Source of the DNA: an uncultured Hyphomicrobiales bacterium
GTDB lineage: Bacteria > Pseudomonadota > Alphaproteobacteria > Rhizobiales > Beijerinckiaceae
Direction: 5' to 3'
NCBI GenBank assembly: GCA_903851305.1
Contig: CAINNX010000171.1
Coordinates: 17,176 to 81,175 of the forward strand
Length of the DNA stretch: 64,000 bases
A program made the position numbers and the translations under genes. The notes beneath the pieces were generated by a model. That model had not been told where the DNA came from and searched no databases. It was given only the letters and a program-made list of their open reading frames with translations. Shown piece by piece: positions 2,204 to 32,680 of this stretch (within the stretch, counting starts at the first letter, position 1; every line of letters starts with the position of its first letter).

Positions 2204-4199
2204 CTACACCGTGACCTGCGCGCCCAATTCCACGACGCGATCAGAGGGAATCGAGAAGAAGTCCGTTGCATTGGCGGCTTGGCGCGAGAGCATGATGAAA
2301 AGACGATCTTGCCAGACCGGCATGCCGGAATTGGGGCTCTCTTTCAGCGAACGGCGCCCCAAGAAGAACGATGTTGTCATAATGTCGAACTTCAGACCGG
2401 CTTTGCGCATGGTCGCCAAAGCAGCCGGCACACGTGGATTTCCATAAAGCCGAAATGCAGCGTGACCTTGGTGAAATCGTCTGAGAGCTTTTCAATCTCA
2501 TAGCGCTTGTCTGCACTGACACGCGGCGTCTGCTCCGTGTTCACGGATACGATAAAGACGCGCTCATGCAGCACTTTATTGTGCTTGAGATTATGCATCA
2601 GCGCGGAGGGGGCCACTTCCGCGTCCGACGTCAGAAACACCGCCGTGCCAGACACGCGCGTCGGTTTGGATTTGTCCAGCATGCGAATGAGATCGCGCAT
2701 GGGGATGGAATCGCGATGCGTCTTTGAGGTCAGGAAGTATGAGCCGCGCAGCCAGGTCCACATCATCAAGACGACCATGCCGCCAACCAGCACCGGCACA
2801 CAGCCACCTTCAAAGAGTTTCAAAAGATTGGCTGAGAAGAACACGCTTTCAATCACAAAGAAGGTGCCCATCGTCGCAAAGGCACGCCACACTGGCCATT
2901 TCCACAAGCGCCAGAGCACGACGAAGGCGAGCATGGAATCGACCACCATCGAAGCCGTCACCGCAATGCCATAGGCCGAAGCCAGCGCGTTGGAAGATTT
3001 GAACATCGCCACCAGCAGCAGCACGCCGACCAAAAGCGTTCGATTAACGCGCGGAATATAGATCTGGCCTTCCTGCTTGTCGGATGTGTGGTGGATTTCC
3101 AGACGCGGCAACAGGCCCAGCTGAATAGCCTGGCGTGCCAGCGAGAAAGCACCGGTGATCGTCGCTTGGCTGGCAATAATGGTTGCAACCGTTGCCAGGA
3201 TCACCAGCGGCAGCAGCGCCCAATCCGGTGCCATCAGGAAGAAGGGATTGTCCATCGCTTCTGGATTGGCCAGCAGCAACGCGCCTTGCCCCAGATAATT
3301 GATGATCAAAGCGGGGAGCACAAAGAACGACCATGCGAGCTGGATGGGGCGGCGGCCAAAATGGCCCATGTCGGCATAGAGCGCCTCCGCGCCTGTCACA
3401 GCCAGAAACACCGAGCCCATCACCACAAAGCTGAGCAAGCCGTGCGAGAACAGGAAGGTCAGCCCATAGAGCGGATTGAATGCAAAAAGAATGCGTGGCG
3501 CATCACCCAGATGCGAGGCCCCCATCGCCGCCAGCGACAGGAACCACAGCACCATGATCGGGCCAAAGAATTTCGCCACACTGCCCGTGCCATGGCTTTG
3601 CACCATGAACAAAGTGATCAGGATCACGAAGGTGATCGGCAAAATATAATGGTCGAGCGCGGGCGCGACGAGTTTCAGGCCCTCCACCGCAGAGAGCACG
3701 GAGATGGCGGGCGTGATAATGGCATCGCCCGTAAACAGCGATGCGCCCAAAATGCCCAGAAAAAAACGCCAATAGACCTGCGGCCAATGGCCGATTGCGC
3801 CAGCGCCATCAAAGCCAACGTGCCGCCTTCGCCGCGGTTGTCGGCGCGCATGACGAAGATCACATATTTAATGGTGACGATCAGAAACAAAGCCCAGATG
3901 AGCAGCGAGACCACGCCCAGCACATTCTCATCATGCAAGCCCACGCCCGCCGTATGCACCAGAGATTCACGCAAAGCGTAAAGCGGACTGGTGCCGATAT
4001 CACCATAGACCACGCCAATCGAGCCCAGCGTCAGCGAAGCAATGCTGCCATGGCTGTGGCTTTGGCTGTGGCTGTGGCTGTGGCTTTGACCATGGTCATG
4101 CCCGTGATCATGGTGATGATCCTGAGACCCATGCGAGCTGTGTGGAATGGTGCCAGCCTCGATCTTGTGCGAGTTTTGGTCTGACGGGCCATGGGGCAT
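2204..4199 (-). pseudogene. kup: Low-affinity K+ transporter Kup, interrupted by two apparent frameshifts, with a His-rich N-terminal extension
   Basis: Three overlapping minus-strand ORFs in different frames (3675..4199, 2392..3750, 2204..2431) join to a full Kup: [21 protein letters not shown] / [29 protein letters not shown] / [29 protein letters not shown]...[11 protein letters not shown]. Confidence 0.85.
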
Positions 4200-4376
4200 G
4201 GAATCGGTCCTTAGAGGCTATTCCTCTGGCGGCCTGTCGAGCAGGCCCGCGGGCATATACTCCTTTCCGCAGTGCGAGAGAAGGGGCAAGGCCAAAGCCC
4301 ATCAAAGATAGTTGCTAAGGGCCGCCCCGAGCCGGGCTGGCTTTGCTGACTTGCCCGAAGCCTCTGTTTTTGAGAC

Positions 4377-9665: not shown

Positions 9666-10499
9666 ATCGGTTTCAAGCAATCCCTTCAGCCCCTCCCGAT
9701 AGGTCGGATACTGAAACTCAAAGCCCAATTCGCTTTTGATGCGCACATTGGAAACGCGCTTGTTCTCGCCATAGAAGGAGCGCGCCATTGGCGTCATTTC
9801 GCTGGTTGCAAAATCACGCTCAGGCGGCGGCGCGAGCCCCAGCAATTCTGCCGCGTAAGCCACGACATCCTGCGGGGGTGCGGGCTCGTCATCTGTGACA
9901 TTGTAAATGCGCCCCGGCTGCCCGCGCGCAATGCAGGCGGCGATGGCATCGGCGATATCTTCTACATGAATGCGATTGAAGACCTGCCCCGGCTTGATGA
10001 TGCGCCGCGCCGTGCCTTCGCGCAGATTGACCAGCGCGTTTCGCCCGGGCCCATAAATTCCTGACAGGCGCAAAATGTCGAGTTCCGCGCCCATGTCGGC
10101 CGCGCATTCCGCCCAATCCTGTTCGGCCGCCAAGCGCGCATGCGAGCGCTCGGCCACCGGCACACATGGCGTCTCCTCGCTCACCCATGCGCCCTGATGA
10201 TCGCCATACACACCGACCGTTGAAAGATAGATGATGCGCGTGGCGCTGCTCTCCATCATCGCTTCGTCATAAAGGTCGAGAACAGGATCGCTGTCGGCAC
10301 CCGGCGGCACCGAGACAAGCAGCACATCTGCCTGCACCAAAGCCTCGTGAGCTTCGGAAAAGAGCAGTGGCGTCACGCCCACCATCTGCGCTTTCTTGTC
10401 CACGCTGCGCGTAGTTGCAAAAATATCAGAGAAAATATCGCCATATCGCGCAACAAAGGCATGGGTGGAATAGCCGTGACCAAAGATCAACAGATTCAT
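9648..10499 (-). CDS. SDR-family NAD(P)-dependent epimerase/dehydratase-like protein
   Basis: MNLLIFGHGYSTHAFVARY...IIYLSTVGVYGDHQGAWVSEETPCVP...RLSGIYGPGRNAL; start overlaps the queG stop as ATGA. Confidence 0.8.
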   Translation of the reverse strand: MNLLIFGHGYSTHAFVARYGDIFSDIFATTRSVDKKAQMVGVTPLLFSEAHEALVQADVLLVSVPPGADSDPVLDLYDEAMMESSATRIIYLSTVGVYGDHQGAWVSEETPCVPVAERSHARLAAEQDWAECAADMGAELDILRLSGIYGPGRNALVNLREGTARRIIKPGQVFNRIHVEDIADAIAACIARGQPGRIYNVTDDEPAPPQDVVAYAAELLGLAPPPERDFATSEMTPMARSFYGENKRVSNVRIKSELGFEFQYPTYREGLKGLLETDPSLKA

Positions 10500-11632
10500 A
10501 AGCTCACTCCCAGCGCGCGCCATTCGGCCAGCACGCTATCATCTGTTTCGTCTTGATACGCGCGCGCAAGGGCGGCGATCTCGCCAGACGAAAAAAGCTG
10601 CCCCACAGCCCAGACCGCCATGGCGCGCACTTGGCTGTCGGGAAAGCGCAAATTGTCAATCACATGTGGGCGCATATGCGTGTCACCCGAATTGCCCATT
10701 GCAATCATCAGATTGCGCCGGAAGCGCGCAAGCCCGATGCGCTTGATTGGCGACCCTGAAAAATGTGCCCGGAAGGATGCGTCATCAAGGCTTGCCAACG
10801 CATCGAGACCGGGGGCGCGCAAATCGTCGCGCGCCTGCAATTTTGCTTCGCGTGCGACTTGCGCAAATTTGTTCCACGGGCACGCTGCCAGACAATCATC
10901 GCAGCCATAAATGCGATTGCCCATGCTCTTGCGAAACTCAGTCGCAATCGGCCCGTGATGCTCAATCGTCAGATAAGAAATGCAGCGCCGCGCATCGAGT
11001 TGATAGGGGGCGGGAAAGGCTTGTGTCGGGCACGCCTCCATACAAGCCGTGCAGGATCCGCAATGGTCGATCTCCGGCTCATCAGCGGGCAGATCAATAT
11101 TGAGAAAGATCGACCCCAGAAACAGCCATGATCCAAATTCGCGCGAGACAAGATTGGTGTGCTTGCCCTGCCAGCCAAGACCTGCGGCTGCGGCCAGCGG
11201 CTTTTCCATCACGGGTGCCGTATCGACGAACACTTTCATCTCAAGTGCCGGCTCTTTTTTCGCTTCGCCCGCAATCCAGGAGGCCAGCATTTTCAGGCGG
11301 CCTTTGACAAGATCATGATAATCGCGATGGCGCGCATAGACAGAGATCGCGCCTTTGGAATTTTGCGCCAGCACATCGCGCGGATCAGAATCGGGCCCGT
11401 AATTCATGCCCAGCATAACAATTGAGCGCACATCCGACCACAACACGCGCGGGTCCGCTCGTCGCTCGGCTGTCTCGCGCATCCAATTCATATCGCCATG
11501 CGCACCAGCTTCAAGCCATTCGCTCAGACGATGCGGGGCTTCAGGAATCGCATCAGGCCTGACGATGCGCAGCGCATCGAAGCCAAGGTCTTGTGCGCGT
11601 GCGCGCAGACGGGTGAGGAACGCGGCGTTCAG
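10496..11632 (-). CDS. queG: Epoxyqueuosine reductase QueG (proposed CTG start)
   Basis: CGSCTACMEACPTQAFPAPYQLDARRCISYLTIEHHGPIATEFRKSMGNRIYGCDDCLAACPWNKFA (two 4Fe-4S motifs). No ATG/GTG/TTG lies close to the conserved N-terminus; CTG at 11632 overlaps the GST stop. Confidence 0.9.
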   Translation of the reverse strand: MNAAFLTRLRARAQDLGFDALRIVRPDAIPEAPHRLSEWLEAGAHGDMNWMRETAERRADPRVLWSDVRSIVMLGMNYGPDSDPRDVLAQNSKGAISVYARHRDYHDLVKGRLKMLASWIAGEAKKEPALEMKVFVDTAPVMEKPLAAAAGLGWQGKHTNLVSREFGSWLFLGSIFLNIDLPADEPEIDHCGSCTACMEACPTQAFPAPYQLDARRCISYLTIEHHGPIATEFRKSMGNRIYGCDDCLAACPWNKFAQVAREAKLQARDDLRAPGLDALASLDDASFRAHFSGSPIKRIGLARFRRNLMIAMGNSGDTHMRPHVIDNLRFPDSQVRAMAVWAVGQLFSSGEIAALARAYQDETDDSVLAEWRALGVSL

Positions 11633-12324
11633 AAATCGAGGTCCGCATATTCCGGGGAGGGCGTGATCCCCGGCAGACGATCGCTCAAAATCGCGCGGAA
11701 CGACGGGCGAGACTTCACCCGCGCATACCAATGTTTTGCTGCTTCGTCCTCGCCCCATGGCACATCGCCCAGGAAATCCACGCTCGACAGATGCGCGGCA
11801 GCTGCCAGATCAGCATAGGTCATGGTGTCACCCGCCAGCCAATTGCGTGACTGCACCAACCAGCCGATGTAGCGCAGATGATAGCGGATATTCTGGCGCG
11901 CAGCACGCACCAACTCCATATCGGGTGCACCACCACCCTGATCCGAGCGCATCTGGCGTTTGAAGACTTTTTCCTGAAGCAGCCATTGCGTAACTTCGGC
12001 AAAAAATTTGGAATTGAACCATTCGAGCAGGCGGCGCACTTCAACGCGCCCAGCCGGATCTTCGGGCATGAGGCGGCGTGCACCCAACGCCAGCCCGCGC
12101 GTCTCATCCAGATATTCGGCAATCACATTAGCGCCAACAATGGCCGAGACCATCTGGCCATCGGTCAGAACAGGCGTGGTATTGGCGGGGTTGAGCATCA
12201 GAAATTCTTGGCGGCGCTCAAAAATGCGCTCCTCGATCATCTCTGGTTCCATGCCGTATTCGGCCATCACAATGCGGATGAAACGCGAATGCGGACAGAA
12301 CGGATGATAATAAAGCTGCGCCAT
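11629..12324 (-). CDS. Glutathione S-transferase family protein
   Basis: MAQLYYHPFCPHSRFIRIVMAEYGMEPEMIEE...NTTPVLTDGQMVSAIVGANVIAEYLDE; thioredoxin-fold N-domain and GST C-domain. Confidence 0.85.
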   Translation of the reverse strand: MAQLYYHPFCPHSRFIRIVMAEYGMEPEMIEERIFERRQEFLMLNPANTTPVLTDGQMVSAIVGANVIAEYLDETRGLALGARRLMPEDPAGRVEVRRLLEWFNSKFFAEVTQWLLQEKVFKRQMRSDQGGGAPDMELVRAARQNIRYHLRYIGWLVQSRNWLAGDTMTYADLAAAAHLSSVDFLGDVPWGEDEAAKHWYARVKSRPSFRAILSDRLPGITPSPEYADLDF

Positions 12325-12382
12325 AACGCCCCACACGAACATCGAACAAACCTTGCGCGCATTGCCAAGGTGGATGGAATTG

Positions 12383-31385: not shown

Positions 31386-31766
31386 TTACAGCGCCAATTC
31401 AAAAGCGCCCGGCACATGCTCTGGTAGCCGCCACGGCACAAGCAGCATCGCATCGCCGCGGAAACTGCAGGCCTGATGAGCGTGATGGCGCGCCAACCAA
31501 TGACGCGCGGCTTTGGAGATGCGTTGCACTTTGGGGCCATCAATAGCGAAAAGTGCGCCGTCGCGGGTCTGGCGTGCTTTCACTTCCACGAAAATGACGA
31601 GGCCTGCGCGCCGCGCGACAATATCAATCTCACCGCCATGGGCTGTATATGAGAGATTAAGAATACGCCAGCCATGCAAGCGCAACCACAACCGCGCAAA
31701 AAATTCTGCCTCGATCCCGAGACCTCGGGCGCGGCGCCGACTTTGTGTTGAACGCTGGCCGCTCAG
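31386..31766 (-). CDS. YraN family protein (UPF0102), proposed CTG start
   Basis: From CTG at 31766: (M)SGQRSTQSRRRARGLGIEAEFFARLWLRLHGWRILNLSYTAHGGEIDIVARRAGLVIFVEVKAR...; the ORF track starts only at an internal TTG (31691). Confidence 0.85.
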   Translation of the reverse strand: MSGQRSTQSRRRARGLGIEAEFFARLWLRLHGWRILNLSYTAHGGEIDIVARRAGLVIFVEVKARQTRDGALFAIDGPKVQRISKAARHWLARHHAHQACSFRGDAMLLVPWRLPEHVPGAFELAL

Positions 31767-32680
31767 CCGTCGCCTCCATCAGCTTCCGCCGACAATTGAA
31801 TGGCGCGCGCGTAGACGCGCCGGCGTGGCAGACCAACTTCAGCGGCCACGACACTGGCGGCATCCTTCACCGAAAACTTTTGCATCGCTTCGATGAGACG
31901 TGAATCAAGATCAGCAGCGCCCACTTCAGCATCATCTGCACCGGGCGGGCCGACCAGCAGCACAATCTCGCCCTTGGGCGGATCTTCTGCTGCCAGTTGA
32001 TCAGCAAGGCTGCGCAATGAACCACGCCGCACCGTCTCGAAATGCTTGGTCAATTCGCGCGCCACAGCCGCTTCGCGCCGACCCAGCACAACGGCAAGAT
32101 CGTTCAAAGTTTCGGCCAATCGGCGGGGGCTTTCAAAAAACACCAGAGTTCCGGGAATGGCCGCCAATTCGCCAATGCGCTGGCGACGCGCGCCTGATTT
32201 CGAGGGCAGAAACCCTTCGAAGAAAAAACGATCCGTCGGCAAGCCCGCCACAACAAGCGCGGCCAGCACAGCTGACGCGCCCGGCACAGCGGTCACAGGC
32301 GTGCCTTGATCAACGGCATCGGCTACCAGTTTGAAGCCAGGATCAGAGACGAGCGGCGTGCCTGCATCAGACACCAACGCAAGCGCCGCTCCCTCTTTCA
32401 AGCGTGCCAGCAAATGCGGGCGCACCACAGCCGCATTATGTTCGTGATAGGCCACCAGCGGCGTCGAGATGCCGTAATGGGCGAGGAGATTTTTGGTGAC
32501 GCGCGTGTCTTCCGCCAGCACGGCATCCGCTGCAGCAAGGGTTGATAAAGCGCGCAGCGAAATATCACGCAAATTGCCAATGGGTGTTGCGACCACATGC
32601 AGCCCCGGCGCAAGCGGCTCCGCCTCGGCCTTGAGGCCAAGCGCCGTATAAGAGCCACCCCTGCTAGTATGTCCGCTCAC
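31763..32680 (-). CDS. rsmI: 16S rRNA (cytidine(1402)-2'-O)-methyltransferase
   Basis: GLHVVATPIGNLRDISLRAL, AEDTRVTKNLLAHYGI, VSDAGTPLVSDPG, FFEGFLPSKSGAR. Confidence 0.96.
   Translation of the reverse strand: MSGHTSRGGSYTALGLKAEAEPLAPGLHVVATPIGNLRDISLRALSTLAAADAVLAEDTRVTKNLLAHYGISTPLVAYHEHNAAVVRPHLLARLKEGAALALVSDAGTPLVSDPGFKLVADAVDQGTPVTAVPGASAVLAALVVAGLPTDRFFFEGFLPSKSGARRQRIGELAAIPGTLVFFESPRRLAETLNDLAVVLGRREAAVARELTKHFETVRRGSLRSLADQLAAEDPPKGEIVLLVGPPGADDAEVGAADLDSRLIEAMQKFSVKDAASVVAAEVGLPRRRVYARAIQLSAEADGGDG

Follow-up and report, generated by a model that had tools for sequence, protein, structure and literature searches.

A CTG codon overlapping the rsmI stop as the likely start of yraN in a small clade of Beijerinckiaceae

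Introduction

Where does translation of yraN begin when the codon found at the expected place is a CTG that overlaps the stop codon of the preceding gene? The question is raised by a stretch of 64,000 nucleotides (the window) from an uncultured Hyphomicrobiales bacterium of the family Beijerinckiaceae (the source genome, G000).

Overlapping genes can be coupled by termination-reinitiation, usually with the help of a Shine-Dalgarno (SD) sequence (Huber et al. 2019, PMC6728339). CUG can initiate translation, in E. coli with about 0.86% of the efficiency of AUG, and accounts for 0.024% of bacterial start codons (both figures as cited in PMC11497404). Weak start codons are compensated by stronger SDs, and evolutionary switches to CUG are extremely rare: 2 of 61,358 ancestral AUG starts and 1 of 2,468 ancestral UUG starts, with four switches among about 69,000 ancestral starts (PMC5622118).

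Comparative sequence evidence makes it highly probable that yraN is translated from the CUG overlapping the UGA of rsmI (CUGA). This CTG start is very likely real and conserved in a small Beijerinckiaceae clade.

The junction of rsmI and yraN

Both genes lie on the minus strand. rsmI (31763..32680; taken from the ORF list) encodes the 16S rRNA C1402 2'-O-methyltransferase, matches TIGR00096 with 240 bits, over the cut-off, and has an RsmI_C domain. The gene ends in GAT GGA GGC GAC GGC TGA, with the TGA at 31765-31763. The last glycine codon (GGC) supplies the C of the yraN CTG (31766-31764), and the two genes share the four nucleotides CTGA (31763..31766). Inside rsmI, 6 nt 5' of the CTG, is an SD-like GGAGG (31773..31777). 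Counted from the CTG, yraN (UPF0102/YraN family; PF02021, NF009151) has 126 codons (31386..31766) and reads (L/M)SGQRSTQSRRRARGLGIEAEFFARLWLRLHGWRIL..., with its stop at 31386.

On the 5' side of the CTG the yraN frame is closed by an in-frame TGA (31779..31781), separated from the CTG by four codons (tgg agg cga cgg). Between this TGA and a TTG at 31689..31691 the frame contains no ATG, GTG or TTG. A gene caller restricted to these three codons chooses the internal TTG, which removes the N-terminal helix. The first-pass annotation of this DNA had described the overlap, the upstream stop, the absence of a standard start before 31691 and the caller's forced choice; the bases, the reading and the positions are all correct, the stop and the missing start are both confirmed in the sequence, and the ORF list agrees about the TTG.

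CTGA is a common word in the window (600 observed, 528 expected), where 11 CTGA stops have an in-phase downstream frame of at least 40 codons. Hence, the string alone is weak evidence for a start of yraN. What raises this CTGA above chance is its conservation.

Conservation of the junction and of the YraN N-terminus

We gathered rsmI-yraN junctions from about 165 Beijerinckiaceae loci, 152 of them with a recognisable rsmI tail. The best named relative is a Beijerinckiaceae MAG with 88% identity. The yraN loci at the level of the order mostly lack a recognisable rsmI tail adjoining yraN and added little.

In 108 of the 152 loci the rsmI stop and the yraN frame overlap as NTGA (A in 53, G in 30, T in 12 and C in 13), where the counts are not phylogenetically independent and several of the genomes are MAGs, some incomplete. 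Beijerinckiaceae therefore normally start yraN on the stop codon of rsmI. Six of the 13 C loci carry an ATG or GTG 2-8 nt past the rsmI stop. The remaining seven have the CTG only (L002, L003, L032, L033, L034, L036 and L060, the last from the same species as L032). They represent six species, including the source genome.

Among all 152 loci, these seven alone lack a standard start at least 24 nt 5' of the conserved AE residue; loci outside the CTG clade have a standard start well 5' of the conserved helix. The distance from the CTG to the anchor is 60-63 nt, compared with a median of 57 nt for ATG, GTG and TTG starts. Judged by its placement, the CTG is the orthologous counterpart of the yraN start in the other loci. 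Four of the six CTG species have an in-frame stop 4-6 codons 5' of the CTG.

Sister species (L035, L037, L074) have TTGA at the same base as the CTGA. In a tree of rsmI and yraN five CTG species are grouped, and the sixth (L036) stands beside the TTG species, interleaving the two kinds. This placement would mean that the CTG either arose twice or reverted to TTG. The CTG persists among species with a YraN identity of only about 68%, and because the same CTG is present in six species, sequencing error is ruled out.

YraN matches the profile PF02021 with 66.3 bits (cut-off 23.6). Started at the CTG, the protein passes NF009151 with 135 bits (cut-off 124), whereas started at TTG 31691 it fails with 118.3 bits. 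The earlier statement that the CTG restores a conserved N-terminal helix which gene callers cut off thus holds.

Codons 12-25 of the CTG frame (RRRARGLGxEAEFxAR) all lie 5' of TTG 31691. Their pN/pS is 0.15 among the six CTG species; the remainder of yraN is more weakly constrained, with 0.34 in the same species. Selection on these codons, together with the upstream stop, places initiation between that stop and codon 12. Within this interval the CTG is the only near-start codon common to the CTG species. On this pattern of selection, the yraN frame is translated 5' of every standard start available in the CTG clade.

Are CTGA overlaps a general mode of initiation?

A conserved CTG at one junction could be a single instance of something widespread. 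The first-pass annotation had counted two independent CTGA junctions in the window and read them as a used mode of coupled non-canonical initiation, for which an excess of CTGA over other NTGA overlaps would be expected. That CTGA overlaps are a general and enriched mode in the source genome is unlikely.

Our census covered about 0.25 Mb of G000 (window included) and 1.2 Mb of a relative, G067, for which a purpose-made simple caller gave 1,040 genes. In the 1.2 Mb of G067, the base before TGA is A 80, G 30, T 21 and C 36 times at stops in overlap phase, and C 182, G 83, T 82 and A 31 times at other stops. C is depleted in overlap phase (36 of 167, versus 182 of 378 elsewhere), and nearly all of the overlap-phase C cases have an ATG, GTG or TTG within a few codons. 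Among 93 ortholog pairs of called genes in G000 and G067, yraN alone needs a non-standard start. The depletion and the single pair together argue that the expected excess of CTGA is absent from this 1.2 Mb. The other flagged pairs were set aside as frames that run inside overlapping upstream genes and then meet an ATG, or as broken genes. An ortholog scan that took in every ORF was overwhelmed by antisense frames and was discarded.

The second junction in the window was left unnamed in the first-pass annotation. The best candidate, and presumably the one meant, is the CTG of queG at 11632, which overlaps the end of a fzlA-like (GST-fold) gene (11629-12342, minus strand). We reject this CTG as a start. 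It is conserved, but the fzlA-like protein ends in DLDF and the base is set by the Phe codon (TTY). Two species read CTA at this place, which allows no start. An in-frame ATG (11758-11756) lies 42 codons 5' of the CTG, inside the fzlA-like gene, where it falls at a conserved Pro-Trp (CCN TGG). In the genus, 28 of 29 loci have A as the N and one has G; at all other 4-fold sites of the fzlA-like tail with enough data, A is a minority base. Other families that share the arrangement have A, T or G as the N, and those in which queG has a later start of its own have C. Since an ATG or GTG is conserved here and the base of the CTG is fixed by Phe, queG probably starts at 11758-11756 (predicted extent 10496-11758, minus strand). 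The count of two independent CTGA junctions in the window is thereby left unsupported.

The resulting out-of-frame overlap of queG and the fzlA-like gene would be roughly 126 nt long and would be missed by callers that limit same-strand overlaps. A literature search on the fzlA/queG overlap found nothing relevant. At the queG locus of G170 (L125), the ATG frame, which in other loci continues into queG, stops at a TGA that overlaps the GTG start of the gene (GTGA); the extension looks here like a coupled leader ORF.

Only one other gene in the census clearly lacks a standard start in the way yraN does. It is an SDR gene that follows a ChrR-like (anti-sigma, cupin) gene (G067, C2:235122; G000, C87:31110, locus L348; all loci L346-L356). 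Its CTGA is present in 11 species, with GGAG (GGTG in one) 7 nt 5' of it and upstream in-frame stops as near as three codons to the CTG. The 11 species share no ATG, GTG or TTG there. Outgroups have an ATG at this position or two codons further on, and the first codons after the CTG have a pN/pS of 0.07. The one alternative start is an ATC or ATT codon found after the CTG in most species. By its conservation, the SDR gene is a genuine second CTGA start and the best second example in the genus.

yraN and the SDR gene are unlinked and share the anatomy of an SD followed by CTGA, which is what a general mode would produce. The depletion of CTGA among overlap-phase stops, the one pair in 93 and the upstream ATG of queG all speak against it. 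What remains of CTGA as a used mode of initiation is a rare, recurrent use in the source genus, as indicated by the conservation of yraN and, in 11 species, of the SDR gene.

Two apparently broken genes were met along the way. In the window, at about 2206-4217 (minus strand), a potassium-transporter-like (kup-type) gene appears split over several frames; the syntenic stretch of G067 aligns at 80%, and the region is either a pseudogene or carries assembly errors. On the same contig but before the window, at about 6385 (L075, minus strand), a cpaE-like pilus ATPase frame appears to be broken at a CTGA and so creates a false junction in the census.

Other explanations for the expression of yraN

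Translation of yraN might start downstream, at TTG 31691 or at an ATC, ATG or TTG codon at +50 nt, and produce a shorter protein. TTG 31691 is the ORF caller's pick, and the codon at +50 nt is ATG in L003 and L033 and TTG in L034. However, two species have ATC there and L036 has ATT; therefore the clade shares no standard start at +50 nt. The truncated YraN falls below the NF009151 cut-off, and a start at TTG 31691 would leave out codons 12-25, which purifying selection constrains more than any others in yraN. A downstream start is improbable.

Alternatively, the conserved CTG could be a by-product of codon bias in rsmI, and yraN could start at a codon so far overlooked, AGG or some other near-cognate. 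GGC is the favoured glycine codon (56-58% of Gly codons), so the conserved C alone proves little. But exactly at the first position of the CTG the sister species have T, and the rest of the family A, G or T. Nor do the CTG species share any other near-cognate codon from the upstream stop to codon 12; the AGG at -3 is GGG in two of them. This explanation is quite improbable.

A fusion of RsmI and YraN through programmed -1 frameshifting close to the rsmI stop, without initiation at the CTG, is very improbable. Relative to rsmI, yraN does lie in the -1 frame, and it stays open for some 13 nt 5' of the CTG. In three species, however, these 13 or so nucleotides are all that could be used, and they hold no slippery run of the form X XXY YYZ (GGNGGCGACGGC). 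The 80-nt junction region folds no better than shuffled sequences (z of -0.26 and 0.13), and most relatives have ATG, GTG or TTG exactly at the junction, which makes initiation the ancestral mode for yraN.

A probable mechanism for initiation at CTGA

If yraN starts at the CTG, the most likely mechanism would be SD-assisted termination-reinitiation at the CTGA, with fMet-tRNA reading CUG. Ribosomes finishing rsmI would stop with UGA in the A site and be held by the internal GGAGG. A held ribosome would then shift until CUG lies in the P site and start again with fMet-tRNA, and YraN would begin with methionine. The output of yraN would be low and tied to the translation of rsmI.

An SD-like motif (GGAGG, or GGGGG in two species) is present 6 nt 5' of the CTG in all six CTG species. 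Such motifs occur at 7 of 7 CTG-only, 7 of 12 TTG, 11 of 30 GTG and 13 of 53 ATG junctions, a trend rather than a test because the loci are related. The trend fits stronger SDs compensating weaker start codons and SD-assisted reinitiation at overlaps.

The start base is also the third position of the last rsmI codon. For this reason it has drifted between A, G, T and C across the family; in the CTG clade it became C and remained C. Against the CTG it can be said that CUG is a very poor start in E. coli and that switches to it are so rare. Moreover, the synonymous codons GGA, GGG and GGT at the end of rsmI would give ATG, GTG and TTG, and the C was kept all the same. Codon bias, without selection, may explain this.

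An unusual initiator tRNA was considered as a cause and rejected. The tRNA-fMet genes of G067 (L245) and G152 (L246) have A29-U41 in the anticodon stem instead of the G29-C41 of E. coli. G152 is a TTG species, and the variant is therefore not specific to the CTG clade. It is possibly relevant to start-codon discrimination. No initiator tRNA gene was found in G000.

More tentatively, a post-termination ribosome at an SD-anchored CUGA may restart almost regardless of which base opens the start codon. CUG could then persist through long evolutionary periods, either because it is tolerated or because it acts as a throttle. yraN, in six species, and the SDR gene, in eleven, would exemplify this in nature, and such starts would be missed systematically in annotation. 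We consider this wider reading possible but doubtful. A CUG start is almost absent from bacterial genes, yet in this genus it appears to be kept at two unlinked junctions. This poses a testable question: does restart at an overlapping stop and start relax the choice of start codon? In addition, the yraN case points to a kind of gene whose 5' end is cut short by standard gene callers.

Comparison with known systems

YraN is here an ordinary member of the YraN/UPF0102 family (PF02021, NF009151), and the rsmI-yraN neighbourhood is widespread in Beijerinckiaceae. The start codon is the sole difference. RepFIB RepA is an example of a bacterial CUG start. Such starts likewise have CUG read by fMet-tRNA as the initiator, as we predict for yraN. 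The particular features of the CTGs of yraN and the SDR gene are their position at a stop/start overlap and their conservation in six and eleven species, respectively.

Streptomyces sigR, too, naturally starts at a very weak codon, GTC, but there the weak start serves IF3-mediated repression (PMC5472188).

The closest counterparts are the gene pairs coupled by termination-reinitiation (TeRe) at ATGA and TGATG (PMC6728339), the main text of which does not mention CTGA overlaps. Like them, rsmI and yraN are a co-directional pair with a 4-nt overlap and an internal SD, and the ATGA, GTGA and TTGA junctions of the relatives resemble TeRe overlaps. The pair studied here differs in that its predicted start is CTG and in that coupling is inferred from sequence.
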